A stretch of DNA of 64,000 nt from Pyxidicoccus parkwaysis (GTDB taxonomy: Bacteria; Myxococcota; Myxococcia; Myxococcales; Myxococcaceae), in NCBI RefSeq assembly GCF_017301735.1, contig NZ_CP071090.1, positions 8,670,001-8,734,000 on the forward strand, written 5' to 3'. A model generated the notes under the pieces. The model saw only the letters and a list, made by a program, of their open reading frames with translations, was not told where the DNA came from and searched no databases. Below, piece by piece: positions 21,014-35,251 of the stretch (position 1 is its first letter; each line of letters begins with the position of its first letter). A program made the translations under genes and the position numbers.

Positions 21014-21014
<1 letters not shown>

Positions 21015-21763
21015 TGGGCAACCGGACGGCGCGGCGCATCGCCACCCGCCTGGGTGAGCTGGACTGCAACGTGGTGGACGCGCTCGCTGAGGGCACCACG
21101 CCTGATTTGGCCGTGGTGCTCTGCCACGGCTTCGGCGCGCCGGCGACGGACCTGGTGCCGCTGGCGCCGGAGCTGATGTCGCTGGATGCCCGGCTCGCCG
21201 AGCGCGTGCGCTTCATCTTCCCCGGCGCGCCGCTGACGCTGGCGGAGTGGGGCATGCCCGCCGGCCGCGCGTGGTTCCACCTGCCCGAGGAAATCATGCG
21301 CGGGCAACTGCGCGACTGGGACCTCTTCGCGCGCGAGGTGCCGCCGGGCCTGCCGGCCGCGCGCCGCGCGGTGATGAGCGTGGTGGAGGCGGTGTCCACC
21401 ACGATGAAGCTGCCGTACGGGCGCATCGTCCTGGGCGGCTTCAGCCAGGGCGGCATGGTGACGACGGACGTGGCGCTGCGGCTGGAGGAGGCGCCCGCCG
21501 GGCTGTGCATCCTGTCCGGCACGCTCACCTCGGAGGCGGAGTGGCGGCAGAAGGCCCAGGCCCGCAAGGGACTGCCGGTGTTCCAGGCCCACGGCCGCGA
21601 CGACACGGTGCTGCCCTTCTCCGCCGCCGAGCGCCTGCGCGACGTGCTGACGGAGTCCGGGCTGTCGGTGGACTTCCTCCCCTTCCATGGGCCGCACACC
21701 ATCGACTCCGAGGAACTGGAGCGGCTGGCCGCGTTCCTGGCGGCGCGGCTGGGAGGGCGCTGA
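21014..21763 (+). CDS. Phospholipase/carboxylesterase-family hydrolase
   Basis: This 249-residue serine hydrolase belongs to the phospholipase/carboxylesterase family. It shows an oxyanion region LCHGFGAPATDL, the nucleophile elbow GGFSQGGMV, the acid in AHGRDDTVLPF and a histidine in FHGPHTI. There is no signal peptide. It is translationally coupled to the cyclophilin gene and four bases from yjbQ. The physiological ester is unknown. Confidence 0.83.
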
Positions 21764-22181: not shown

Positions 22182-22459
22182 GGCCTGCCCGGCCCCCCCT
22201 CCTCGAAGCACTCGAGTGAGAGGAAGCGGACGGCCCGCGGGCAACCCGCATGGCTGGTGGATCTCCGACAACCGGAGCGCCCCCCTGTCGGATGGAAGTC
22301 CTCTCGCCCATGAAGGACAAACCCGTCACGGACGGGCGTCGCGCACACCACCCGGACAGTCAGCTGCGTCGCTCGTGAGCGAGCCATTCATCTGGGGGCA
22401 GACATCCCTAACAGGGGACGTGTCTGTGAATGGACTCGACAGGCCTCGAGGAGAAATCA

Positions 22460-24184
22460 ATGTCAGCGCAGAAGCCAGAGCCTGTGGGCGTCAGGTTCAC
22501 CGAGACGATGAGAGGCTATTTCTCGCCTCTGGTGAAGGACGACTACAAGAAGGGGTACGAGGTGGGCCGTGCGGCTGACTCGCCGTTCGAGTTCACGGTG
22601 ACCATCACCGCGGATGACATCGACCAGATGGTCCGCGACTCCAGCCACATGTCCAGGCTGGAAGGCACCGTCGTCGCTCCGGCCCTCTCAGCCACGCCGC
22701 TCACCGTGCGCGAGGGTTGGTTCTCCCTGTTCGCCAGAGACCCGGACAGGGCCCTGACGCGCAAGATGAACTACGGCATGCCGATGACCACCTCGGACGG
22801 CAAAGCCTTCTACATGGAAGGCTTCAAGACGATTCACGACGACCTGGGCCCGGACCTCTGGTCCGACACCACCACCCTGTACATCACCCTTCACGAGGGA
22901 AGGGATGCCAACGGGCCGGTCCTCGGGAAGGGCATCGTCAAAATCGAGGTGGCGGACTTCAAGAAGCAGCTCGCGTCGATGGAGGCGGTGAACGCGAAGA
23001 GCCCGGCTGAAGCCCTGCGGGCCGTGGCGAAGCTCGGTGAGTTCTTCACCGGAGTGCTGAGCGAAATCTACGGAGGCATCTTCGCCCAATCGAGCATCTT
23101 CAATCCCTCCGCCCCACCCCGCCCGCAGCGCAAGCCGCGCCTCGGCGAGCCGGACGTGCACTTCGTGAACACCCGCGACGGCGTGCGCCTGAGGCTGACC
23201 CGCTATGAGGGAGGCAGGAAGGGGCCCGTCATGCTCTCCCCCGGCTTCGGGACTTCCTCGCTCGCGTGGACCATCGACACCACGGAGCAGAACCTCCCCG
23301 AGTTCCTCTACGAGCGCGGCTACGACGTCTGGACGTTCGACTACCGCGCCAGCCCGGCGCTGCCCTCGGCGAGCACCCAGTTCAGCCTCGATGACATCGC
23401 CCTGTATGACTATCCCGCGGCCGTGGACACGGTCCGCTCGGTGAGCGGCGCCGACGACGTGCAGATGGTCGCCCACTGCGTCGGCTCGCTCACCCTGCTG
23501 ATGTCGATGACGGCCGGGCTCGAGGGCATCCGCTCGGTCGTCTCGTCACAGCTCACGCTGCATCCCGTCGGGCCGACGCTGAACGAAATCAAGGCGGGGC
23601 TGTACCTCGCGAGCTTCCTGTCGACCCTGGGCGTGGACACCCTGAACACCGACTTCGACACGGAGTCTGACTGGCAGGACAGGGTCTACGACACGCTGCT
23701 GCGGCTCTATCCCACGCAACAGCGCTGCAACAGCCCCGTCTGCCGCCGAATCCTCTTCATGTACGGCGAGGTCTACAAGCACGAGCAACTCAACGACGCC
23801 ACGCACGATGCGCTCCACGAGATGTTCGGCATCTCGAACATGACGACGTTCAAGCAGATCTCCCTCATGCTGCGCAAAGGCCATGCGGTCTCCGCGGAGG
23901 GGGAGGAGGTCTACCTGCCCAACATCCACCGCCTCAGGCTCCCCATGGCCTTCATCCACGGGGCGGAGAACCGCCTCTTCCTGCCCCGGGGAAGCCAGGA
24001 GACCTTCAAGCTCCTGAGCGAGAAGAACGGTCCCGACTACTACGTGCGCCACGTCATCCCCGACTACGCACACATGGACTGCTTCATCGGCAAGAACGCC
24101 AACAGGGACGTGTATCCCCTCGTCGTGGCGGAGCTCGACAAGCACAGCTGGCCCCAGGGCCCATCCGCGAGCAGGGCGCCATGA
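22460..24184 (+). CDS. Two-domain alpha/beta hydrolase with Cys in the nucleophile elbow
   Basis: This 574-residue protein has two parts. Residues 1-215 (VRFTETMRGYFSPLV, EFTVTITADDIDQMV, TTTLYITLHEG) match a domain I recall as the middle part of very long GMC-oxidoreductase/hydrolase fusion proteins. Residues 230-560 are an alpha/beta hydrolase with an oxyanion loop SPGFGTSS, an elbow AHCVGSLTLL with Cys340 where Ser is usual, and a late His in DYAHMDCF. The GMC dehydrogenase part is missing. ATG 22460 has GAGGAG seven bases upstream; an in-frame start ten codons earlier lacks a site. It is the first gene of the 22.5-30 kb operon and overlaps the next gene by 4 bp. A lipid or sterol ester/lactone substrate is a guess. 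Confidence 0.75.
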   Translation: MSAQKPEPVGVRFTETMRGYFSPLVKDDYKKGYEVGRAADSPFEFTVTITADDIDQMVRDSSHMSRLEGTVVAPALSATPLTVREGWFSLFARDPDRALTRKMNYGMPMTTSDGKAFYMEGFKTIHDDLGPDLWSDTTTLYITLHEGRDANGPVLGKGIVKIEVADFKKQLASMEAVNAKSPAEALRAVAKLGEFFTGVLSEIYGGIFAQSSIFNPSAPPRPQRKPRLGEPDVHFVNTRDGVRLRLTRYEGGRKGPVMLSPGFGTSSLAWTIDTTEQNLPEFLYERGYDVWTFDYRASPALPSASTQFSLDDIALYDYPAAVDTVRSVSGADDVQMVAHCVGSLTLLMSMTAGLEGIRSVVSSQLTLHPVGPTLNEIKAGLYLASFLSTLGVDTLNTDFDTESDWQDRVYDTLLRLYPTQQRCNSPVCRRILFMYGEVYKHEQLNDATHDALHEMFGISNMTTFKQISLMLRKGHAVSAEGEEVYLPNIHRLRLPMAFIHGAENRLFLPRGSQETFKLLSEKNGPDYYVRHVIPDYAHMDCFIGKNANRDVYPLVVAELDKHSWPQGPSASRAP

Positions 24185-25620
24185 AGGACGGACACACCCA
24201 TCGCGAGGCGCGGGGCGTCCTCGCGGACCTGTTCCAGTACCCGTTCATGTCGGCCCTCGTCGAGCGCCGCACCCGGCGCATCGCCCGGGGCACGTCCATT
24301 GAAGCGGGGCCGCTGAGCCACACGAGCACCAACGCGGCGGCGCCGCTCAGCAAGCTCGAGGAGGCCATCCTCATCGCCTCCATGGGCGTCACCGGGGTGA
24401 CGACCCATGATGGACCGCTCATCAAGCCGGGCGGCGACCTGGAGCTCGGGACACCGTTCCTGAACGTGGCGGCGCGCACCGGGAGCAGCGCCGACAACGC
24501 CCAGGCCACCAGCTTCATCATGATCAACGACGAGGGCATCTGGCTCCTGAAGCAGCCCACGGGACGCAAGGCCATCGAGTCGCTCAAGGACCTGCCGCCG
24601 AAGTGGACCGACTGGAAGGAGCAGGACTGGCTCCACGCCGCCGAGGCGGCCAAGGTCCGCATCTCCGACCGGCGTCTGGAGTTCCCCCGCGAGTACCCCT
24701 ACTACCTGGGCTGGAACAAGCAGACATCCAACCGTCCGGGGACGACCCTCTTCTACCCGGTGGTGGACTGCACCCGTCAGTACATCAATGCCCTGCTCAT
24801 CATGCTCTCCGAGCCGGAGGGCCAGCGTCCCCTCTTCGTGGACGACTGGCGGTCCTTCCACCCGAAGGGCCTGGTGGAGACGCTGGCCTGGCTCGGCGGC
24901 AGGCTTGGCCTGGGCCCGCGAATTCCCTATCAGCCCATCGGTGGGCTCAAGTGGATTCGCAATGGCTTCGTCAACAAGGACAACGTCGGGCCGCTCGGGT
25001 TCGGCAACACACTGCGGACGGACCACGAGTGCTTCTTCTACCTGCAGAACCTGATGCTCCTATGCCAGGGCATGGGGCTCGGAGGGTGGATTCACAGCGC
25101 GGTCTTCACGCCCTACATCTGGCAGCAAGACGCCTCCAAGGGCTGGCACGGCCTGGGGTTCCGGCTGGAGAAGCCCCGGCAGCGAAGCCCCATGCCGCCG
25201 GTTCCCGCCTCGCAGCCCAACCCCGTCGGAATCGACGGCATCCTCGAGGGACTGTGCCCGCCGTACGTGAAGTCCATGGACGACGCCGTCGAGCAGGTGC
25301 TCGCGGAGAAGTACGGCGAGCACGGCACCTACGGAGACGTCACCGCCTTCGCCCGGTCCTATAACGACGTGAAGAACGCCGACGCGTACCTCAAGAACGC
25401 GAGGCGCTTCTCACCGAAGGCCATCGAGTACACGAAGGACATCTGCAACTACATCTTCGACACGTATGGGCGCTTCCCGGCTCACGTGGATGCCTTCTAC
25501 ACCCCGGGCATCTGGCTGCAGTGCGCCCATCTGGAGTTGGAGTACTACGAGAAGTTCTACGACATGGCGCAATACACGCGTCAGGCCGAGCACGACTCGC
25601 GGTGGGGCCACCCCGGATGA
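24181..25620 (+). CDS. Unrecognised 479-residue protein of the oxidation cluster
   Basis: This soluble protein has no signal peptide. The N-terminal part (FQYPFMSALVERRTRRIARG, then PLSKLEEAILIASMGVTG) has the feel of a nitroreductase/FMN fold: an Arg-rich motif followed by a PLS-x-E-E helix. Nothing else confirms flavin binding. The middle region is rich in aromatics (EYPYYLGWNK, FFYLQNLMLL) and the C-terminal third has DAFYTPGIWLQCAHLELEYY. It starts inside the stop of the hydrolase gene (ATGA) and ends 10 bp before the cytochrome c gene, so it works with them. It could be a redox enzyme delivering electrons to the di-haem cytochrome, but no function is claimed. Confidence 0.7.
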   Translation: MKDGHTHREARGVLADLFQYPFMSALVERRTRRIARGTSIEAGPLSHTSTNAAAPLSKLEEAILIASMGVTGVTTHDGPLIKPGGDLELGTPFLNVAARTGSSADNAQATSFIMINDEGIWLLKQPTGRKAIESLKDLPPKWTDWKEQDWLHAAEAAKVRISDRRLEFPREYPYYLGWNKQTSNRPGTTLFYPVVDCTRQYINALLIMLSEPEGQRPLFVDDWRSFHPKGLVETLAWLGGRLGLGPRIPYQPIGGLKWIRNGFVNKDNVGPLGFGNTLRTDHECFFYLQNLMLLCQGMGLGGWIHSAVFTPYIWQQDASKGWHGLGFRLEKPRQRSPMPPVPASQPNPVGIDGILEGLCPPYVKSMDDAVEQVLAEKYGEHGTYGDVTAFARSYNDVKNADAYLKNARRFSPKAIEYTKDICNYIFDTYGRFPAHVDAFYTPGIWLQCAHLELEYYEKFYDMAQYTRQAEHDSRWGHPG

Positions 25621-25630
25621 GGACGTGCCC

Positions 25631-27181
25631 GTGAAGAGAGCGCTCCAGCTCACCGCGATTGCGCTCACGGCGCTGGTCCTGCTCGCAACGGTGGCGCTCA
25701 TCGTCATCGAGCCGGGCTGGGCCAAATCCGAGCAGCGGGCGCCGAAGGACACGTTCCTCTACGGCTCCGTGGGCGTCGAGCTCATGCCGCTGCCGGTCCT
25801 CCAGGTGATGCCAGACCTCTTCCCGGAGCGCTTCCAGCCCGCGGGGGCGGCCGCCGGGGATTGGATTGACCAGTTCGGCTTCGTCCGCGGAAAGCCTGGC
25901 GTGAACGAGGGGCTGCCCATCGGCCTCATGGTCTCCAACTACCGCGCGAAGTCCGGAGACCCGTCCCCCACCCGGTGGGTGGGGTTCAGCTGCGGGCTCT
26001 GCCACACCGCCATCATCCAGACCGACGAGCAGGACCCGGGCGTGGTGGTCGTCGGCATGGGGAACCATTCGCTCGACCTCTTCGCGTGGCTCGAGGCGGT
26101 GCAGGGCTCGCTGCTGGACGAAGAACGGCTCACCGTCGACACCATCTCCAGGGCCTACGAGGCGCGGTTCAAGAAGCCCCTCGGCGCCGTGGAGCGACTG
26201 ATGGTCAAGCTCTCGCTGGATGCGGCCCGGGCGGACCTCCAGTCCCACCTGCCGGGCTGGGATGCGCCCCACGAGGCCGCGAAGCTCCGCGTCCCCCGAT
26301 ACCTGACCAACGGGCCGTCCCGCACCCAGGCCTTCCGGGAGCTCGTGCGCTTCTTCATGAACCGCCCCGCGTCCGAGGACCGGGCGCACAGCAAGCTTCC
26401 CTCCATCTTCCTCCAGCGGAACCGGGACTGGGCGCAGGCCGATGGGAGCGTCAGCGACCCGACGACCCGGAGCGTCTTCGCGGTGCTCGCCGCGGGCGCG
26501 ACGCCGGAGAACCTGGTCGTGCCGGGCATCCGCGGCAACCTCCAGCAGGTGGTGGACCTGACACTGCACCTCCAGGGCCCGCGCTACGCGGACGTCTTCC
26601 CCAAGCACCCCATCGACCCGGCGAAGGCCGAGCGCGGGCGGAACGTCTACATGCGGTACTGCAATGACTGCCATGGCGCTCCGGGTCCGGACGGGACCTG
26701 GCAGCGTGGGCGCCTGCAGGGGCAGGTGATGTCGGTGGAAGCCATTGGCACCGACCCCGAGCGGGTGGGCTTTCGCTACTACGAGCAGCTCATTCCCGCC
26801 GTCTACGACGCAATCCCAGACGGGCACCCCTTCAAGCCCAGACGAGACACCTTGCGGAGCACGGGAGGCTATGTCAACGCGCCGCTCGAGTCCGTCTTCA
26901 CCCGCGTGCCGTATCTCCACAATGGCAGCGTGCTGACCCTGGCGGAGCTCATCAACCGGGTCCCCCGGCGCGAGGTCTTCTACCGGGGAAGGAACTTCTA
27001 CGACCCGGTGGCGGTCGGCCTGAAGTCGCCGGAGCAGCCAGACAGCAGGCACTACTACCTCTTCGATACCCGGGTGCGGGGCAACTCGAACCGGGGGCAT
27101 GCCTATCCCTGGGCCTACCAGGGACCGGGCTGGGACCCGGTCGCCCTGGATGACCTGCTCGAGTACCTCAAGACGTTGTGA
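25631..27181 (+). CDS. Membrane-anchored di-haem cytochrome c
   Basis: This 516-residue protein has an N-terminal membrane anchor (hydrophobic 5-26) and two CxxCH haem sites, CGLCH at 121-125 and CNDCH at 344-348. The second lies in a typical c-type domain (AERGRNVYMRYCNDCHG ... VPYLHNGS). It resembles large di-haem cytochromes (c peroxidase/MauG or dehydrogenase-linked types) working outside the membrane. The start is GTG 25631, seven bases after GAGGA; a GTG two codons earlier is the alternative. Its place between soluble oxidation enzymes and a membrane protein suggests it carries electrons for the pathway. Confidence 0.82.
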   Translation: MKRALQLTAIALTALVLLATVALIVIEPGWAKSEQRAPKDTFLYGSVGVELMPLPVLQVMPDLFPERFQPAGAAAGDWIDQFGFVRGKPGVNEGLPIGLMVSNYRAKSGDPSPTRWVGFSCGLCHTAIIQTDEQDPGVVVVGMGNHSLDLFAWLEAVQGSLLDEERLTVDTISRAYEARFKKPLGAVERLMVKLSLDAARADLQSHLPGWDAPHEAAKLRVPRYLTNGPSRTQAFRELVRFFMNRPASEDRAHSKLPSIFLQRNRDWAQADGSVSDPTTRSVFAVLAAGATPENLVVPGIRGNLQQVVDLTLHLQGPRYADVFPKHPIDPAKAERGRNVYMRYCNDCHGAPGPDGTWQRGRLQGQVMSVEAIGTDPERVGFRYYEQLIPAVYDAIPDGHPFKPRRDTLRSTGGYVNAPLESVFTRVPYLHNGSVLTLAELINRVPRREVFYRGRNFYDPVAVGLKSPEQPDSRHYYLFDTRVRGNSNRGHAYPWAYQGPGWDPVALDDLLEYLKTL

Positions 27182-27196
27182 CGGGAGGACGCGACG

Positions 27197-27724
27197 ATGG
27201 AAAACCCCAGCCTGCGCGCCGGTATCTCCCTGACGGAGCTCACCGCGACGTTCGTCCCCGCCGGCCTGCTGATTGCGACCTCGCTGCTCGCGGCCGAGTT
27301 CACCTTGAGCCTGGACCGGTACCGCGCCCTCTACCCGCTCTGGGCCGCGGCCGCCCTGGCCATCCCCGCGGTCTACGCCCATGTGGCGGCCGACGGCGTG
27401 CGTTCGATGCAGCGCTACTGGCTCCTGTTCTGGACCTTCAGCTTCGCGGCGTTCCTGATTCACCTGGGCTATTCGTTCAAGGGCTACCACCGGGGCTCCT
27501 GGCTCGAGGTCGCGCTCGCCGCGGTATGGGCCGTGGACCTGGCGCTCGGCTGGTTCAGCGACTCGCAGGCGCGGTGGGTGGCCTTCCTGCGGGCCGGCGT
27601 GCTCCTGGGCGTGCTCGCCTGGTTCACGTACGCGCTGGTGAGTCATTCCGGAGAGTGGCTGCCGTTGCTGCTCGGCTTCGCCCTCGTGGGCGCCGCGGTG
27701 CTGGGCCTCTGGCCACGAGGCTGA
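27197..27724 (+). CDS. Six-helix membrane protein
   Basis: This 175-residue integral membrane protein has about six hydrophobic helices (for example LLIATSLLAAEF, WTFSFAAFLIHLGY, LRAGVLLGVLAWFTY). It begins 15 bp after the cytochrome c gene, with GGGAGG about nine bases upstream. It carries conserved-looking His and Trp residues in or near the helices (YAHVAADG, IHLGYSF, LVSHSGEW) that might bind haem or quinone, which is speculative. No family recognised. It is probably the membrane partner of the cytochrome. Confidence 0.68.
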   Translation: MENPSLRAGISLTELTATFVPAGLLIATSLLAAEFTLSLDRYRALYPLWAAAALAIPAVYAHVAADGVRSMQRYWLLFWTFSFAAFLIHLGYSFKGYHRGSWLEVALAAVWAVDLALGWFSDSQARWVAFLRAGVLLGVLAWFTYALVSHSGEWLPLLLGFALVGAAVLGLWPRG

Positions 27725-27745
27725 GCGCGAGAAAGGGGGAGTCCG

Positions 27746-29362
27746 ATGAGGTCCATGAGAAGTGACTCGACAGGCGAGGTGTCCTCGCAGGCCCGTCCGC
27801 GCGGGCTCACCGCGCTGAGCGCCACGCAAATCGCCGAGAGCGTCAGCAAGGGTGAGCTCTCCGCCGCCGAGGTCGTGGAGGCATTCATCCATCGCATCGA
27901 GGAGGTGGACGGGCGGCTGAATGCCGTGGTCACCCGTCGCTTCGGCCAGGCGCGAGCGGATGCGCGCGAGCTCGATGCGGCGCGCGCCCGCGGTGAGCCC
28001 CTGGGGCCGCTCGCCGGCGTCCCCATGACGGTCAAGGACCCGTTCGACGTCGCCGGATTGCCGACGACCTTCGGCCTGCCGACGCGCGGCAATCACGTGG
28101 CCCGGGAGGACGGCCCCCTCGTGAAGAGGCTGCGCGGCGCGGGCGCCGTCATCCTCGGCAAGACGAACGTGTCGGAGCTGCTGTTCTTCCAGGAGGGAGA
28201 CAACCCTCTCTTCGGCCGGACGAACAACCCCTGGAACCTGGAGCGCACGTCCGGCGGTGGCAGCGGTGGCGAGGGCGCCATCATCGCGGCCCGCGGCTCT
28301 GCCCTCGGGCTGGCCTCGGACGTGGGCGGGAGCATCCGCACCCCGGCGCACTTCAACGGCATCCACGGCTTCCGGCCGACCTCCCGGCGCCTCACCATCG
28401 TCGGCTCGCCGCCCGAGCTGTTCTTCCCCGGCTTCGAGGCCATCGCGTTGGACCCCGGGACGCTGGCGCGGCATGTCGCGGACCTGAGCCGCGCGATGGC
28501 GGTCCTCGCCGCCCCGGGGCAGGAGCGCCTCGACGTGCGGGTGCCGCCCGTCCCCTGGCGAGAGCCCGCCGAGGTGGACGTGTCGGGGCTTCGCATCGCG
28601 ATGTTCGACGACGACGGCTACTGGCCGGCCTCGCCCGCCCTGCGCCGTGCCGTGCACGAGGCCGCGGCCGCGCTGCGCGGGCGTGGCGCGCAGGTGGAGA
28701 CGTTCTCTCCGCCGGGCCCCGGGACGGCCCCCAGGCTGTACAACGCCTTCCTCTCCGCGGACGCGCTGGAGTGGACGAAGCCGGTGCTCCACGGCAACCC
28801 GGTCGACTCGCGCATCCGCATCATGACCCAGGGCATGTTGCTCCCCCGCGTGCTGCGGGCGCCGCTGGGGCGGCTGCTCACCGTCGCGGGTCAGCGCCGG
28901 CTCGCCGCCGGAGTCACGACGGCGCGAGGCCGCTCGGCGGGTGAGTACTGGGCGCTGGTGGCGGAGCGCGACGCGTGGCGTGGCGCGTTCCTCGCCGCGA
29001 TGGATGCGGGCGGCTTCGACGCCATCCTCTGCCCGGCGCACACCCTCCCGGCCCTGCGCCACGGCGCCAGCCGCGACCTCTACGACACGACCAGCTACCT
29101 GGTCACCTACAACGTCCTCGGGATGCCGGCGGGCGTCGTCGCCGCCACGCGGGTGCGTGCCGGCGAGGAGAGCGACCGGCCGTCCAGCCTGGACATCATC
29201 GAGTGCGCCGCGCGCCGGACGGAGGAGGGCAGCGCGGGCCTGCCCGTCGGCGTCCAGGTCGCGGCGCGGCACTGGCGCGACGACGTGGTGCTCGCCGTCA
29301 TGGCGGCCCTCGAGGAGCACTTCCGGCGGCAGCCGGACTACCCGGGAGAGCCGCCGCTGTAG
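27746..29362 (+). CDS. Amidase-signature family hydrolase
   Basis: This 538-residue amidase-signature enzyme has a complete Ser-cisSer-Lys triad: Lys97 in MTVKD, cis-Ser173 in GGGSGGEG and nucleophile Ser196 in SDVGGSIRTP. The size and LCPAHTLPA/NVLGMPAG C-terminal motifs fit fatty-acid-amide-hydrolase-type or broad aryl/alkyl amidases rather than GatA, and no gatB/gatC are nearby. ATG 27746 has GGGGGAG upstream. It is in the same operon, 21 bp after the membrane protein gene, so an amide bond is likely cut or formed in the pathway. Confidence 0.85.
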   Translation: MRSMRSDSTGEVSSQARPRGLTALSATQIAESVSKGELSAAEVVEAFIHRIEEVDGRLNAVVTRRFGQARADARELDAARARGEPLGPLAGVPMTVKDPFDVAGLPTTFGLPTRGNHVAREDGPLVKRLRGAGAVILGKTNVSELLFFQEGDNPLFGRTNNPWNLERTSGGGSGGEGAIIAARGSALGLASDVGGSIRTPAHFNGIHGFRPTSRRLTIVGSPPELFFPGFEAIALDPGTLARHVADLSRAMAVLAAPGQERLDVRVPPVPWREPAEVDVSGLRIAMFDDDGYWPASPALRRAVHEAAAALRGRGAQVETFSPPGPGTAPRLYNAFLSADALEWTKPVLHGNPVDSRIRIMTQGMLLPRVLRAPLGRLLTVAGQRRLAAGVTTARGRSAGEYWALVAERDAWRGAFLAAMDAGGFDAILCPAHTLPALRHGASRDLYDTTSYLVTYNVLGMPAGVVAATRVRAGEESDRPSSLDIIECAARRTEEGSAGLPVGVQVAARHWRDDVVLAVMAALEEHFRRQPDYPGEPPL

Positions 29363-29409
29363 CGGTCCTCACCGGGCCCGTCACAAGACTCTGGAGGAAA
29401 GGAAAAGCC

Positions 29410-29952
29410 ATGCTCCAACTGACCGAGACCCACCCGAACACGGATGTGATTCGCGCCTACTGGAACGCGACGACGACAGGCAACGTCGAGGCGCTGCGGC
29501 CCATCGTCGCGGAGGACGCCGTCTTCCACTACCCCGGCAACCACTTCATCTCCGGCGACTACCGGGGCAAGGATGAAGTCGTGGGGCTCTACACCATGCT
29601 GACGGGCATGGCGGGCGGCACCTTCGAGGCGCGGCTGCACGGCGTCGCCGCCGACTCACAGTACGCGGTCGCCATCCTGAGCTATCACCTCAACATCCTC
29701 CCGAAGCACTACCTGCCGGGGCGCGCCTGCGGCCTCTTCCGGGTCGCCGACGGCCAGATTCACGAGTACTGGCTCTTCGAGTGGGACCAACTCATGATCA
29801 ACGACGTCTTCCGGACGCTCGGCATGCGCGTCGCGCTCCAGCACGGGAAGTTGGGGACCCTCGTCCTGTCGCTGCCTCGCTCGCTCATCGCCGCCGCGCG
29901 AACGGCGTGGCGCCTCTTCGGCGGCACCTACCGGGCGCCCACCGACTTCTGA
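29410..29952 (+). CDS. SnoaL/NTF2-like protein
   Basis: This 180-residue protein has a SnoaL/NTF2-like fold pattern: VIRAYWNATTTGNVEALRPI, then AEDAVFHYPG, YRGKDEVVGLY and GQIHEYWLFEWDQ. Such domains act as isomerases, cyclases, hydratases or simple binders. It extends about 40 residues past the fold into a basic amphipathic tail (SLIAAARTAWRLFGG). ATG 29410 follows a purine-rich GGAGGAAAGGA. It is the last plus-strand gene of the cluster and converges on the P450 gene 55 bp away. Confidence 0.75.
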   Translation: MLQLTETHPNTDVIRAYWNATTTGNVEALRPIVAEDAVFHYPGNHFISGDYRGKDEVVGLYTMLTGMAGGTFEARLHGVAADSQYAVAILSYHLNILPKHYLPGRACGLFRVADGQIHEYWLFEWDQLMINDVFRTLGMRVALQHGKLGTLVLSLPRSLIAAARTAWRLFGGTYRAPTDF

Positions 29953-30007
29953 TGCCCGCCAGCGGCGAGCGGGAGTCCGGGGCTCGCACCCCGGGCTCCG
30001 CGCACGG

Positions 30008-31438
30008 CTACCCCGGCAGCCGGCGGAACTTCACCTTCAGGCCCGAGCACGGGGTCGGAAAGAAGTCGCGATTGAGCTTCAGGTCCTGCGGCGGAAGCTC
30101 CCACGTGTAGTCGCGCAGCAGGAGCGTGCCCACGATTTTCAGGAGGAGCGTTATCACCGGCTCGCCAGGGCAGCGGTGGCCGTCGGGGGCGCCCCCACCG
30201 TGGGGGATGTAGCTGTTCTCCTCGAGGTGCATGGGGCAGCGCGCGTCGAAGCGGTCCGGGTCGAAGCGCTCGGGCTGGGGGAACACGTCCGGGTCATGCA
30301 TGGCCACGTGGACGCAGGCCGCCGCCCGCCAGCCCGCCGGGACGTGGTAGCCCCCGTACTCGAACGGCGCCTTCACCTGGGCGAAGAACGTCGTGGAGTT
30401 GATGGGAAAGAACCGCCGCAGCTCCTGGGAGAACTGCCCCAGGAACGTGAGCTTCTCGAGCTGCTCCGGGGTGATGGGCCCCTCCGGTGAGACGCGCCGC
30501 ACCTCGTCGCGAGCGCGCTGCCAGAGCTCCGGGTGCTGGCTGAGCGCCAGGGTGAACAGCGTGAGCGAGACGTACACCCCGCCGTAGGCCGCGAAGAACA
30601 GGTGCATCAGCTCGAGCCGGAGCACGTCGTCCTCGAGCCGCGAGCCGTCCGGGGACCGGGCCTCCATCAGCTCGGAGAGGACGTCCTCGAACCGCCGCTG
30701 GTGATGCTGGCGGAGGGCCTCGTCGATGTGAGCGAGGAGCTGGTCGCGACCGCGGATGGCGCGGCCATAGGTCGTGAATGGCAGCTTGATGGGCGCGGCG
30801 GTGAAGCCCTTGAGGAAGTCATTGATGGCCGAGGCGACATGCGCGTTCGCCGGCCCTGCCACCTGACCGGTGAAGAGCTCGAGCACGAGCGCGGACCCCA
30901 TCTTCTGGAACTCGTCGCGCCAGGTGAGGTCGCCACGACGCGCCCACTGCTCGATGAACTTCGAGGTGATGCGCTGGATGATGGGGACGTACGCGTCGAG
31001 CGCCTCCTTCCGGAAGGCGTGGAGGATGAGCCGCTTCCGCGTCCGGTGCGTCTCCCCGTCAATCAGGGGCAACGAGTCGTAGCAAAGCAGCTCCTGGACA
31101 TGCCCCGGGCTTCCGCGCGCGCGGGTGAAGTAGCGCTCGTCCAGGAAGAACGTGAAGGCCTCCGGCCCGACGAAGAACACGACCCGCTCGCCGAAGAGAT
31201 GGCTCTTGAAGACATGGCCGTACTTCTTGAAGCGCTTGATGAAGAAGCCGTGGTTGTTCCAGGCAATCGAGAGGGTCTCCCCGAGGAGCGGCAGCCCGAA
31301 GCTCCCGGGCGGCAGGGGCTTCTGCGCGGAGGCAAGCCGCTCCCCTCCACCACGGCGCAGGCGGGCCGCTGGCAGGGCACCGGGCGCCCAGAAGGATTTG
31401 CGGAGCGTGGCCCTGTCGCTGACGTCCGGTCTGTCCAT
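30008..31438 (-). CDS. Cytochrome P450, CYP120-like, without the acid-alcohol pair
   Basis: This 476-residue P450 has no membrane anchor. The N-terminal PPGSFGLPLLGETLSI and YGHVFKSHLFG follow the CYP120/CYP26 style. It has ExxR (ELRR), a PERFDPDRF loop and haem-ligand Cys423 in PHGGGAPDGHRCPGE. The I-helix, normally AGxET, reads AAYGG, so the acid-alcohol pair that delivers protons to O2 is gone. The haem loop, GGG-x4-GHRCPGE, resembles CYP152 peroxygenases. This suggests a peroxide-using or rearranging P450 rather than a standard monooxygenase. No ferredoxin or reductase gene is nearby. It converges on the 22.5-30 kb operon and probably shares its substrate. Confidence 0.85.
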   Translation of the reverse strand: MDRPDVSDRATLRKSFWAPGALPAARLRRGGGERLASAQKPLPPGSFGLPLLGETLSIAWNNHGFFIKRFKKYGHVFKSHLFGERVVFFVGPEAFTFFLDERYFTRARGSPGHVQELLCYDSLPLIDGETHRTRKRLILHAFRKEALDAYVPIIQRITSKFIEQWARRGDLTWRDEFQKMGSALVLELFTGQVAGPANAHVASAINDFLKGFTAAPIKLPFTTYGRAIRGRDQLLAHIDEALRQHHQRRFEDVLSELMEARSPDGSRLEDDVLRLELMHLFFAAYGGVYVSLTLFTLALSQHPELWQRARDEVRRVSPEGPITPEQLEKLTFLGQFSQELRRFFPINSTTFFAQVKAPFEYGGYHVPAGWRAAACVHVAMHDPDVFPQPERFDPDRFDARCPMHLEENSYIPHGGGAPDGHRCPGEPVITLLLKIVGTLLLRDYTWELPPQDLKLNRDFFPTPCSGLKVKFRRLPG

Positions 31439-31683
31439 GGTTGCGTCTCCCCCTCCAGGGCGTGCCGCCGTTTCACGGGCCCACGCTTCGCGTGACTTGC
31501 CGCGCGCGCGAGGCGCGGTGCATCCGCCGGTATGCGCGCTGCCCCGTGTCCGTGCCAGTGCCCTGGCGTCCCGCTCGATGGTGACTTTTGGTGCGGAGTC
31601 CTGGCGCTCGTGGTGCGCGAAGACGGAGTGAATATTCCATTCCGCCGCGCGTCACCCGCCTGGCCTCACACCCGGGAGCACCC

Positions 31684-32712
31684 ATGGCTCTGGCCGCCAG
31701 CGGACTCGCGTTCCTCATGCTGTCGCACCTGCTGCTTGCCGCTCCCGTGAATGCGGGCTTCCGTGCGCCCGAGCACTTCGCGAAGAACGAGCACGTCGCC
31801 TACGAGGCCGTGAAGACACACGACGGAGGGCTCCGGGTCCGCTTCCAGTTCATGGACCCGTTCGACACGTTGCAGGTCTTCGAGCACACGTACGACTACC
31901 AGCGCGTCCTCGAATTGAGCGCTCGCTATGGCATTCCCGACACGCTCTTCGAGCCCATTCCCGTCACGGAGTTGCCCAATCGGGACAAGGTCCTCGACAA
32001 CGGACTGTTCCATGCGCGCGGAGACATGCTGGAGCCGGACCTCAGCGCGGTGAGCACGTTCTATGGGCCGGAATTCACGCGACCGATTGCCCGCTTCATC
32101 ATCGCCAGCCTGAAGGAGCGCGGCCTGGACACCCGCGCCCACCGCATCGCCATGGCGATGGCCTTCACGCAGGACATCCCCTACGGGATTCCGTCGCTGG
32201 ATGGGGATGGCCTCTTCCGCTCGGGGCTGTCACCCGCGCCGCTCATCCTGCTCACGGGTTATGGGGATTGCGATTCGAAGGCCACGCTCTTCGTCGGCAT
32301 CCTCCGCTACCTCATCTCGCCGGAGGACATCCTGTTCCTCACGCCCGAGGACGAGCCGCACATGCTCACCGCCATCCGCGGCGAGCCCGGCCCGGACGAG
32401 CGCTTCATCGTCTGGGAGGGACATCCCTATCTTCTCGCCGACGTGTCGGGCCCCGGCCGGGCGACGCTGGGCGAGCGGGAGAATGAATCGCAGGACAGCC
32501 ACGTGTACCGGGTGGAGCCCTACGAGGCGAAGTCCCTGCCCTACCATCCGGACGCGGACTACTCGCTCTTCGGGAGGCCGAGGTTCCACATCCCCGGCGC
32601 GGGGCAGGTCCACATCGGGCTGGGTCGCGTGCCGGACGAGGATGACGAAGACGCGCGGTCCGCTCGGGACTTCGGGTACGGCCCGGAGGACGCACCGGGC
32701 CGTGAGCCGTGA
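31684..32712 (+). CDS. Secreted transglutaminase-like protein
   Basis: This 342-residue protein has an N-terminal hydrophobic signal (LAFLMLSHLLLAAPVNA). Its central motif GYGDCDSKATLFVGILRYL, with Cys196, has the form of the transglutaminase-like (papain-fold) core, where Cys starts the helix. The following His/Asp are not obvious; EDEPHMLTA and GHPYLLADVS are candidates. The C-terminal 70 residues are acidic and Gly-rich. It may be a periplasmic cysteine peptidase or crosslinking enzyme. ATG 31684 is preceded by GGGAG five bases upstream. It converges with a small lipoprotein gene. Confidence 0.65.
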   Translation: MALAASGLAFLMLSHLLLAAPVNAGFRAPEHFAKNEHVAYEAVKTHDGGLRVRFQFMDPFDTLQVFEHTYDYQRVLELSARYGIPDTLFEPIPVTELPNRDKVLDNGLFHARGDMLEPDLSAVSTFYGPEFTRPIARFIIASLKERGLDTRAHRIAMAMAFTQDIPYGIPSLDGDGLFRSGLSPAPLILLTGYGDCDSKATLFVGILRYLISPEDILFLTPEDEPHMLTAIRGEPGPDERFIVWEGHPYLLADVSGPGRATLGERENESQDSHVYRVEPYEAKSLPYHPDADYSLFGRPRFHIPGAGQVHIGLGRVPDEDDEDARSARDFGYGPEDAPGREP

Positions 32713-32730
32713 AGGTGCCGCGCCGACGAC

Positions 32731-33168
32731 TCAGCCGCAGACGTAGAAGTCGGAGAGGGCAAGTCCGGCAGACGCGCCCGTGGAATCCTTCACGGAGACC
32801 CTGTACCGGGACGAGTAGTCACCGGGCGAGGTCTCGTCAGGCTGCCAGCAGAAGAACACCTGGGTCGTAGAGGGTCCACTGCCGGCTGAAATGATGTCCG
32901 TTCGCGGAGGGACGAACAGGTTCCGCTGCTCGGACCAGAAATACGTGTAGGGCGGGACTCCGCCAGAGCCAGACGCCGTACAGGTGATGTCCTGATAGGA
33001 CGTGCGGCTGCACGAGATGCCGACGGACAGTCCAGCCTGGGAGGTCCCCAGGTTCGAGCCAGCCTCCGGCGCGGAGTCGAGCCCCTCCTGAGGTGCACCT
33101 CCACAGGCCGCCATCAGCAGCGCCGTGGAAACGAGGGGAAGAGCATCACGAAGTGCAAAGCGTTGCAT
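32731..33168 (-). CDS. Small lipoprotein with PKD/Ig-like domain
   Basis: This 145-residue lipoprotein has a lipobox at Cys22 (LMAAC). The mature part has the beta-sandwich pattern CTASGSGGVPPYTYFWSE ... YRVSVKDSTGASA, which follows the PKD/Ig-like plan, and ends in Cys. Four further cysteines in the domain could form disulfides. Probably an adhesive or structural surface protein. It is monocistronic; ATG 33168 opens the signal peptide. Confidence 0.7.
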   Translation of the reverse strand: MQRFALRDALPLVSTALLMAACGGAPQEGLDSAPEAGSNLGTSQAGLSVGISCSRTSYQDITCTASGSGGVPPYTYFWSEQRNLFVPPRTDIISAGSGPSTTQVFFCWQPDETSPGDYSSRYRVSVKDSTGASAGLALSDFYVCG

Positions 33169-33262: not shown

Positions 33263-35251
33263 TCATTCCGGGGTCGACCGGACGACAGCGCCCTTCCGTT
33301 GCCGCCCCCGGTGCGAGGCGGCCGCGACGGCGACCTTGCGCTCCGGGCCCTTCGCCTGCCCCCGGATGCGCACCCACGAACCAGGCGCATCCGGCGTCGC
33401 GTGCACCATGGACCAGCCGGTGGGCACCTCGGGCGCGGCCCAGGTGTAGAGGGCGCGCGCGTCCTTCGGTGACAGGTTGATGCAGCCATGGCTCATCGGC
33501 TCGCCGAAGCGGTCGTGCCAGTAGGCGGTGTGCAGTGCGTAGTCGTCCTGGAAGAACATCGTCCACGGCACCGTGGCCACGCGGTACGTCTCGTTGCCCG
33601 CGGTGTTGTTGCCCGTCATGTCCGCCTCGGCGAACTTCAACCAGATGCGGTAGAGCCCCTCCGGCGTGTCCGTGCCCGGCTTCCCCGAGGAGATGAGCGT
33701 CGCGTACACCGGCCGCTCGCCCTCGTAGGCCACCAGCACCTGCGCCTCCAGGTCCACGTCCAGCCAGCGCTCACCGGGCTCCACTCCGGGCGGCGCGGGG
33801 GTGAACCACGCCACGTGCAAGTCCTCCCTCGCCACCCACTGGTTCTCCGCGATGAGCACCCACCTGCCATCCGCGGACAACTCCTTCACCGCGACCAGCG
33901 TGCGCGGCGGCAGCAGCGTCTCGCGCGCGGCCTTCGCGTCCGGAGCCACCTTCACCTCCACGTCGGCCTGCGGCTTCGTGCGCGACTGCGCCCACGCGAA
34001 GGGCGCCGGCAGTTCCGCGAGCGTCTCGGCATCCACGCCCTCGAAGGCGGAGGGCCGGTACTCGCGCAGCACCCGCGCCTCCAGGTACTGGCCTTCCGTG
34101 GTGCGCCAGAAGGTGCGGCGGCCCACGCGCACCTGCCCGCGCAACTGCACCGTCACCGAGCCCTTGAGCAGCACGCCCTTCCGCTTCTTCTTCGCGAGGG
34201 CGAGGCTCGGATAGGCCTTCACGTGCCGGCCCACCACGCGCGCGTAGATGCCCGGCGTGAGCTCGCCCTCGCGCAGCTTGGGCAAATCCCTCACACGCGG
34301 CTCGCGAAAGTTGGGCTCCAGGTAGCGATTGCACACCCAGCCGCGCGGCTGGATTTGAATCCACGCCTCGCAGTCCGGCCCGCTCATGGCCGTCTCGCCC
34401 TGCCAGCGCACGCGCATGTCCTGGGCCACCGTGCCCAGCGGCGGCGCATCCCGGCGAGGCTCCTGCCGCACGGCGATGGAGCGCCTCACCCGCAGCGAGC
34501 CGGCGTCGGGCACATAGGGAATGGCAACAGGCGCCGTCCCCGCGTCCGCGCCAGCCACGGGCTTCGAGTCCGGCTCGAACTCCTCCGGGTCCAGCGACGG
34601 GTCGACGTCACCGAGCACGAGGCTCGTGTCCTCCAGGGGCTCGCCGTCGGGCCCGAGCACCAACTCCGCGCCCGGGTTCTTCTTGTCCGGGATGACGACG
34701 AGCTGCTCGGCGGGAAGGGGCTCCGCGTCCGAATGCTCGGCCTTGCCGTGGCGCTCGGGCCTGGGCATGGCGCTCAGCGCCGGGTCGATGGCGAGCTCGG
34801 GAACCTCTTCGTGTGAGTCATTGGAGTCCGGAGACTCGGAGGCCTCGACGCGCGCCAACTTCGCGTTGACGGAGGTCGTGCCGCCATCCGTTCCCGTGTC
34901 CGTCGAGGTCCGCTGCCACGCGGCGAGCAGCTCTTGCGAGGTAGGACCCGCGCCAAGGCCTCGTGCATGCACGCCCCCGTCAGTAGACGGGGTAACGCCG
35001 GTGGCCGGCGTACCCGCCGCGACAGAGGGCTCACCCGCCCCCATCGACGCGCTCGCGCTGCCCGTGCCTGACGCGGCATTGGCAACGACAGACGTCACAC
35101 CCATCCCCGCGTCCACCTGGGCAATGGCACCGGCAGGCGCAGGCGAGGGAGCCATCACCACGCCGGCATCCACAGGCGCCGCATCCGGATTGGACCCGGG
35201 AGCACACGCAAGACCGGAGAGGAGCAGAGCGAGCGGGAGCCAACGGCGCAT
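33263..35251 (-). CDS. L,D-transpeptidase (YkuD) lipoprotein
   Basis: This 662-residue lipoprotein has its lipobox at Cys16 (LSGLAC). Residues 20-230 are a long low-complexity linker rich in Ala, Gly, Asp and Pro. SH3-like segments follow (about 245-440; for example SLRVRRSIAVRQEP and DVEVKVAPDAKAA). The catalytic YkuD domain (about 475-640) has AYEGERPVYATLISSGKPG and SHGCINLSPKDARALY with His588 and Cys590. It forms 3-3 peptidoglycan cross-links or attaches lipoproteins to the wall. The last 30 residues are basic. It is monocistronic. Confidence 0.87.
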   Translation of the reverse strand: MRRWLPLALLLSGLACAPGSNPDAAPVDAGVVMAPSPAPAGAIAQVDAGMGVTSVVANAASGTGSASASMGAGEPSVAAGTPATGVTPSTDGGVHARGLGAGPTSQELLAAWQRTSTDTGTDGGTTSVNAKLARVEASESPDSNDSHEEVPELAIDPALSAMPRPERHGKAEHSDAEPLPAEQLVVIPDKKNPGAELVLGPDGEPLEDTSLVLGDVDPSLDPEEFEPDSKPVAGADAGTAPVAIPYVPDAGSLRVRRSIAVRQEPRRDAPPLGTVAQDMRVRWQGETAMSGPDCEAWIQIQPRGWVCNRYLEPNFREPRVRDLPKLREGELTPGIYARVVGRHVKAYPSLALAKKKRKGVLLKGSVTVQLRGQVRVGRRTFWRTTEGQYLEARVLREYRPSAFEGVDAETLAELPAPFAWAQSRTKPQADVEVKVAPDAKAARETLLPPRTLVAVKELSADGRWVLIAENQWVAREDLHVAWFTPAPPGVEPGERWLDVDLEAQVLVAYEGERPVYATLISSGKPGTDTPEGLYRIWLKFAEADMTGNNTAGNETYRVATVPWTMFFQDDYALHTAYWHDRFGEPMSHGCINLSPKDARALYTWAAPEVPTGWSMVHATPDAPGSWVRIRGQAKGPERKVAVAAASHRGRQRKGAVVRSTPE

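Follow-up and report, generated by a model that had tools for sequence, protein, structure and literature searches.

To our knowledge, few bacterial oxylipin pathways have been worked out. In Pseudomonas aeruginosa, oxylipins are reported to act in cell-to-cell communication (PMC6377657, in the part available). Two kinds of described haem enzymes are compared here with a block of genes, lettered A to H, found in Pyxidicoccus parkwaysis within a stretch of 64,000 nucleotides (positions 8,670,001 to 8,734,000 of NZ_CP071090.1; hereafter the window, in which positions are counted unless another locus is named). The first is the oleate-diol synthase of P. aeruginosa, PA2077 (10S-DOX) and PA2078 (7,10-DS), which the available part of PMC4496055 describes as di-haem, RoxA-related fatty-acid oxygenases of the FadCcp subfamily with a PYLHNGSV signature that is also present in MauG. 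The second are the bacterial fatty-acid alpha-dioxygenases, haem enzymes that oxygenate free fatty acids; the available part of PMC8720084 treats two cyanobacterial alpha-dioxygenases and a tree across bacteria, and its main text as available contains none of the words catalase, fusion or gene cluster.

By these described features, protein C of the block shares with PA2077 and PA2078 two CXXCH motifs, the PYLHNGSV signature, kinship to RoxA, export (predicted for C) and a C-terminal leucine. However, C is shorter (516 vs 624-634 amino acids) and has partners D, A, B, E, F and G, none such being mentioned for PA2077/PA2078 in the available part of PMC4496055. Alpha-dioxygenases are the commonest neighbours of protein B in other bacteria, whereas no protein of the corresponding family PF03098 was found in this genome. 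The block appears to be an island acquired horizontally, and on balance we think it probable that it is a fatty-acyl oxygenation (oxylipin-type) cluster. No account of this cluster was found in the titles and abstract openings of the best-ranked open-licence literature on related oxygenases and oxylipins. Below, L numbers denote fetched loci and G000 the genome holding the window.

The inserted block and its origin

By blastn, DNA similarity between the window and four genomes of the same genus (L153-L156) ends at 22182-22193 and returns at 32935 (L153, L154) or at 33317/33354 (L155, L156). In place of the block these genomes have 32-667 bp, and A to H are absent from the corresponding site of all four; the flanking genes on both sides are collinear, with 60-97% protein identity. 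All 27 genomes of the genus contain a flank marker (21014-21763). The 100 relatives searched include 26 other same-genus genomes, four of which have a distant relative of B, with ~27-28% identity by local tblastn that holds over most of the length of B; one more (30%) was detected in the genome of a family member. When guanine-cytosine (GC) content was compared with that of 35 background genes of the window of at least 150 codons, A, B and H fell below all of them and F tied with the lowest; three background genes are below C and below G, eleven are below D, and E is above 32. Furthermore, when the B sequences of 430-530 amino acids from 88 loci, 78 in number, were placed in a tree, B of the window came out as sister to nine sequences from Microbacterium, Nocardioides and Propionicimonas, with 100/99 support. 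Since the block is an insertion relative to four relatives, has low GC content and encodes a B protein placed in an actinobacterial clade, it appears to be horizontally acquired.

The sequence-only reading had proposed a cluster of seven closely spaced genes. All seven open reading frames (ORFs), A to G, are indeed present, with gaps of -4 bp (A/B), +4 or +10 bp (B/C, depending on the start of C) and then +15, +21 and +47 bp, F and G standing tail to tail with 55 bp between them. However, an eighth gene of the same inserted block, H, had been overlooked. A scan for promoters and terminators gave no promoter-like site and four terminator-like sites, about as many as in shuffled sequence (mean 3.7).

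Neighbourhoods of protein B in other bacteria

All linkage counts given here depend on 80 loci, the best of 155 confirmed relatives of B from a scan of genome contigs with a B alignment. Some of these loci are on short contigs, many come from related Streptomyces, L036 and L037 have identical B, and most members of neighbour families were assigned by clustering rather than by a profile search of their own. Genes were called with a GC-position caller, longest-ORF calling being unreliable in GC-rich loci. According to the tree labels, relatives of B occur in Actinomycetota, Acidobacteriota, Chloroflexota, Cyanobacteriota and Pseudomonadota. Genes of the alpha-dioxygenase family occur in 60 of the 80 loci, thiamine pyrophosphate (TPP) enzymes in 27, A or GMC relatives in 25, G-like P450s in 11, DyP-type proteins in nine, C in eight, F in seven and D in five. 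At least one haem oxygenase or peroxidase (alpha-dioxygenase, C, DyP-type or G) is present in 73 loci; once the loci are collapsed to 42 hand-labelled genus groups, alpha-dioxygenase is found in 29 groups and some haem partner in 36. All six Solirubrobacter loci have A-B followed by two paralogous proteins of ~170-210 amino acids and a DyP-type family gene, an identity tested for L032 (11412-13938) alone.

Homologues scattered without co-occurrence had been named as the sign that these genes do not belong together. For A and B the picture is the opposite: of the 25 loci nearest to B of the window (L018-L042, best segment at 54-68%), 22 carry an A-type hydrolase and/or its GMC relative immediately before B, with gaps of -4 to +175 bp by the gene calls used, and three of these 22 (L030, L033 and L035) have no hydrolase domain. 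B, C and D occur together in L043 (Terriglobia), L044 (Acidobacteria), L081 and L092 (Roseibium), L093 (Labrenzia) and L014 (Rhizobium phaseoli); in L043, a GMC-A fusion and one other gene precede B, C and D. The seven Microbacterium/Nocardioides loci all encode G and five of them F. In Microbacterium, A-B comes first, and the opposite strand then carries an alpha/beta hydrolase, G, F (four of five loci) and alpha-dioxygenase. These data show that the linkages A-B, C-D-B and G-F recur across unrelated bacteria.

Regarding the commonest neighbour, the Microbacterium peroxidase beside B matches fatty acid alpha-oxidase 4kvj (E 1.7e-114), as does a long form from R. phaseoli (E 2.3e-99). The N-terminal stretch of the long form scores 28.1 bits against Pfam Catalase (29.5 in L013; cut-off 25) and also matches 3e4w, a putative uncharacterised protein. 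A cyanobacterial linoleate dioxygenase reportedly works with a catalase-related lyase. On plasmids, the long form (at least 80% query cover and at least 56% identity) was found in 16 records, 10 of them near-identical, and these are exactly the 16 with B at 37% or more. Three plasmid records with the alpha-dioxygenase part alone have no B match, and three with a distant B have no alpha-dioxygenase match. C at 47% is confined to the ten near-identical records; B was not matched in 19 others whose C-like proteins are at 28-34%. In a plasmid record of Qingshengfaniella that gave no B match (NZ_CP042265.1, 356377-361735), an alpha-dioxygenase lies 2.2 kb from a distant C-like cytochrome.

A PF03098 search of the genome holding the window gave no match in a run that matched 12 of 20 genomes; 14 control genomes had been silent too in a first run, and the repeat included loci known to hold the gene. 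This family is wider than alpha-dioxygenase and therefore matches elsewhere, such as those in Solirubrobacter (as many as five), are not necessarily alpha-dioxygenases. L043 and L044 are the two other loci that have C-D but no nearby alpha-dioxygenase, and their genomes likewise gave no PF03098 match, a result limited by the fact that both are metagenome-assembled genomes of unstated completeness. We suggest that alpha-dioxygenase may have been replaced by C in the lineage of the window.

Proteins encoded by the block

Searches of Pfam and NCBIfam, in which the C query started from GTG 25625 and the F query three codons before its ATG, assigned families to A, C, E, F and G (Table 1; C also to RoxA-like_Cyt-c); B and D had no family over cut-off. 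In a hydropathy scan, C and H showed a hydrophobic N-terminus, D several hydrophobic segments and G a single internal one; A, B, E and F have no hydrophobic N-terminus.

Table 1. Coordinates, in the window, of the inserted block and of the features predicted in it.
Feature	Position	Strand	Basis
Inserted block (island), ~10.7 kb	22193..32934	.	blastn and gene order vs L153-L156
A: N-terminal beta-rich domain and putative Cys-nucleophile alpha/beta hydrolase, acid-lipase fold	22460..24184	+	PF00561; model; fold match
B: 479-aa protein, predicted nitroreductase fold, module marker	24181..25620	+	no Pfam over cut-off; model; 8cqs match
C: di-haem cytochrome c, RoxA/FadCcp-like, hydrophobic N-terminus	25631..27181 (or GTG 25625)	+	NF040606; 4b2n; two CXXCH
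C, first CXXCH, residues 121-125	25991..26005	+	invariant in 12 sequences
C, second CXXCH, residues 344-348	26660..26674	+	invariant in 12 sequences
D: small hydrophobic protein, partner of C	27197..27724	+	D family always adjoins C
E: putative amidase, nearest solved relatives fatty-acid amide hydrolases	27746..29362	+	PF01425; 2wj1
F: SnoaL_2-like protein	29410..29952	+	PF12680
G: P450 without usual I-helix acid-Thr pair, CYP120/CYP152-like	30008..31438	-	PF00067; 2ve3, 5yhj
H: 342-aa protein, hydrophobic N-terminus	31684..32712	+	inside insertion; no family

The predicted structure of A (predicted local distance difference test, pLDDT, 89.1) has the acid-lipase fold, its best match being lysosomal acid lipase 6v7n (Z 34.0, root-mean-square deviation (rmsd) 2.9, 327 aligned), followed by gastric lipases and then by the polyhydroxyalkanoate (PHA) synthase PhaC (Z 27.1). 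The beta-rich domain spans about residues 10-205. Acid lipases have a Ser nucleophile, which in A is replaced by Cys. The earlier description of A as a Cys-hydrolase is borne out: among 41 aligned sequences, all 27 with the domain have Cys at this position and the remaining 14 have a gap. PHA synthases also have a Cys nucleophile and, although the fold is close, this identity was rejected for A, which scores 16.7 bits against TIGR01838 (cut-off 622.65). Relatives of A (38-45%) are found without B on plasmids of Leptospira, Azospirillum, Persicobacter, Bernardetia, Rhizobium and Variovorax; therefore, the A family extends beyond this module. Proteins of ~1100 amino acids annotated as alpha/beta fold hydrolases (L162, L163 and L164; 40-45% to A) sit on such plasmids of Azospirillum, Rhizobium and Leptospira.

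By VIA-align, the AlphaFold model of B (pLDDT 87.6) matches 8cqs (Z 14.8, rmsd 2.6, 177 aligned), in agreement with a nitroreductase core fold, beyond which B has ~300 further residues. The 50 matches listed are named as nitroreductases, flavin oxidoreductases or related oxidases, and fold matches further down are oxidase BmdC (7ly4, Z 13.2) and CLA-ER (4qlx, Z 11.2). Foldseek ranks nitroreductases top with a best E of 2.0e-3, none reaching 0.001 or better, and B scores 11.8 bits against Pfam PF00881, below the gathering score of 23.5. It is the consistency of the match list and the VIA-align Z, not the Foldseek E, that argues for this fold, and we infer from the model that B may be a nitroreductase-fold flavoprotein. 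An Arg-rich N-terminal motif and an S-x-D-N motif are conserved. Among 35 candidate stretches, none was confirmed as a viral relative of B. In Phyllobacterium sp. A18/5-2 (L011:10001-11345), a relative of B is split into two annotated ORFs, with an apparent frameshift.

C from its GTG start narrowly exceeds the cut-off of NF040606, di-heme cytochrome C peroxidase (154.7 vs 150 bits); in a six-frame search of the genome it appears as pieces of 82.6 and 72.5 bits, each below cut-off. Two distant NF040606-like di-haem proteins below the curated cut-off are located at G000:C1:10578008-10578970 and 3600709-3601254. The hydrophobic N-terminus of C covers residues 3-32. The PYLHNGSV signature is not specific, since it is shared with MauG-type proteins. 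The best PDB match in a profile search is 4b2n (E 1.6e-21), identified as RoxA in the available part of PMC4496055. A rubber oxygenase was nevertheless rejected, with 21.2, 23.2 and 31 bits for RoxA, RoxB and RoxC against cut-offs of 900-1000. Among 399 genomes of the class of L043, the sole match to C at E 1e-60 is in the genome of L043 itself; among 147 genomes of the class of the window, three besides its own have matches, all at 31-33%. Tandem di-haem cytochromes near B, at 28-32% to C, are present in L030 (12097-15044) and L035 (16638-19547) and recall the PA2077-PA2078 pair.

The D family is present in seven of ten loci with C, window included, and always adjoins C; D is 29% identical to its L014 counterpart. 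A haem/quinone membrane protein had been suspected, and nothing besides hydrophobicity and position beside C was found to speak for it. In L059 (11491-11658) and L060 (11441-11644), the alpha-dioxygenase genes as called begin with short stretches like D of L014, which may reflect fusion of a D-like membrane part to the oxygenase or mere shared hydrophobicity.

E aligns over nearly its full length (residues 20-526) with fatty-acid amide hydrolase (FAAH) 2wj1 (E 2.2e-61) and retains, at the amidase-signature positions, the Lys and the two Ser, residues with known roles in these enzymes. It differs from FAAH in being bacterial, in having no hydrophobic N-terminus and in its place in an oxygenase cluster. 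A relative of E stands beside B, in divergent orientation, in L029 (Acidimicrobiia), with 350 identities in 546 columns; this is the only E match at high identity among the B loci, two others being weak (35-37%). Relatives of F are found in L019-L022, L025 (with G and alpha-dioxygenase), L040 and L042.

G matches CYP120 2ve3 (E 2.3e-66) and 5yhj (E 3.2e-31), which we take to be a CYP152, its database record naming only Cytochrome P450. The likeness to CYP120 is overall, and that to CYP152 lies in the Cys loop (GHRCPGE). CYP152 enzymes have an Arg-Pro motif in the I helix, where ordinary P450s have an acid-Thr pair. The I helix of G reads AAYGG where the aligned 5yhj shows R-P, and the acid-Thr pair is missing from G and from its eight closest relatives (L018-L023, L025 and L026). 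A canonical CYP152 was rejected, G scoring 139.3 bits against NF053744 (cut-off 600) and having no I-helix Arg-Pro.

H has no family match and carries a GDCDSKA motif. It has no relative in loci L011-L097 and, in the genus, only weak partial matches besides the window copy; it is probably a passenger of the island. Homology to the transglutaminase-like gene beside D in L043 was rejected (BLASTP E 4.3). The next native gene (33263-34768, minus strand) ends in a HGCINLSP motif, which to us is reminiscent of L,D-transpeptidases.

Proposed pathway and alternatives

A lipid theme, with release, oxygenation and processing of fatty acyl chains, is well supported, since the enzymes to which A, C, E and G are each similar have fatty acyl or related lipid chains as substrates and since the commonest neighbour of B belongs to the alpha-dioxygenase family, alone or with a catalase-like N-terminal stretch. 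The fatty-acid or N-acyl-amide route guessed by the sequence-only reading thus gains from the alpha-dioxygenase neighbours, the FAAH-like E and the FadCcp-like C. Its sterol alternative gains less, the cholesterol-oxidase-like GMC partner in relatives scoring 200 bits against a cut-off of 850.

In the pathway that we propose, the substrate is inferred, and both the product and the order of the steps are guesswork. With its acid-lipase fold and Cys nucleophile, A would, together with the FAAH-like E, free or transfer acyl chains from esters and amides. C would be anchored, along with D, at the periplasmic face of the membrane and would oxygenate an unsaturated or free fatty acid, a step that would be the job of alpha-dioxygenase in sister clusters. 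G, with no O2-activating acid-alcohol pair and no redox partner encoded in the block, would rearrange or hydroxylate with the use of a peroxide. B may reduce or oxidise a conjugated carbonyl intermediate, and F may bind or isomerise a product. The roles of C as an oxygenase, of G as a peroxide-using P450 and of B as a flavin-dependent enzyme are deduced from their families.

Several points weigh against this pathway. The expected co-occurrence holds for the parts A-B, B-C-D and G-F and fails for the whole, all seven genes being found together in none of the 80 loci. Moreover, E is rare near B (matches in three of the 80 loci, one at high identity) and in seven loci the fetched DNA encodes no haem partner. 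Export is predicted for C, and A, B, E and F have no hydrophobic N-terminus, so products must cross the membrane. G is far below the curated CYP152 cut-off (139 of 600 bits), and all enzyme activities of A to G are predictions. As for replacement of alpha-dioxygenase, PF03098 is absent as well from the genomes of L026, L028, L031, L035 and L038, among which only L035 has C-like proteins (31-35%); since L026, L028, L031 and L038, of the A-B kind without C, also lack it, its absence is not tied to C. Nor is C simply a substitute for alpha-dioxygenase, since both are present in L014, L046, L081, L092 and L093.

Alternatively, in a reading that we hold to be unlikely, the block might degrade N-acyl amides and other acyl conjugates for carbon, E splitting amides, A splitting esters and the oxygenases trimming the chain by alpha-oxidation. 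The nearly full-length kinship of E to FAAH fits such a role, as do the TPP enzymes of 27 B loci, which together with alpha-dioxygenase would suit chain shortening by general alpha-oxidation chemistry. However, E is an irregular member of the B neighbourhoods, the island encodes no TPP enzyme (the one member scanned elsewhere scores best against acetolactate-synthase-type models, below cut-off), and no transporter or beta-oxidation family was found among the island proteins with Pfam/NCBIfam. Slightly less likely still is the oxidation of sterols or isoprenoids, in which A would cleave sterol esters, a cholesterol-oxidase-like GMC partner, located elsewhere in the genome (no search for it was made) or lost, would oxidise the ring, G would hydroxylate, F would isomerise and C would cleave an isoprenoid chain like RoxA. 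For it speak the relatives in which A is fused or adjacent to GMC oxidoreductases, one of which weakly matches cholesterol oxidase, the top fold match of A, lysosomal acid lipase, being a cholesteryl ester hydrolase, RoxA as the nearest solved structure to C, and the MMPL (L032, Solirubrobacter) and thiolase (L036) genes of B loci. However, the commonest neighbour of B is related to a fatty-acid alpha-dioxygenase, C scores only 21-31 bits for RoxA/RoxB/RoxC, E is FAAH-like and no island protein matches GMC in Pfam or NCBIfam. Least likely is a detoxification or peroxide defence in which C, G and B would dispose of lipid hydroperoxides, as the narrow NF040606 match of C and the catalase-like stretches or DyP-type peroxidase of relatives might suggest. 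Against it, alpha-dioxygenases do not solely remove hydroperoxides but produce them, and the closest clade has a lipase-like enzyme as a constant partner.

Returning to fatty-acyl oxygenation, we tentatively put forward a broader view, which we hold to be possible rather than probable: B may mark an undescribed, laterally mobile lipid-oxidation pathway present in at least five named phyla besides the lineage of the window. This pathway would have a flavoprotein/acyl-hydrolase core and interchangeable haem oxygenases, i.e. a cyclooxygenase-like (COX-like) alpha-dioxygenase, a RoxA/FadCcp-like cytochrome with its membrane partner or a DyP-type peroxidase. C-D would have replaced alpha-dioxygenase here, and the product would be an oxylipin signal or a defence compound.

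A marker gene such as B, joining unrelated fatty-acid oxygenases across phyla, would let such pathways be found and tested through genome search. Its linkages would also give a role to a large family without Pfam entry, to D and to the catalase-like alpha-dioxygenase fusions. Furthermore, close relatives that do not have the island provide a natural reference for the genome with this clean insertion. This island points to an uncharacterised bacterial route to oxidised fats.

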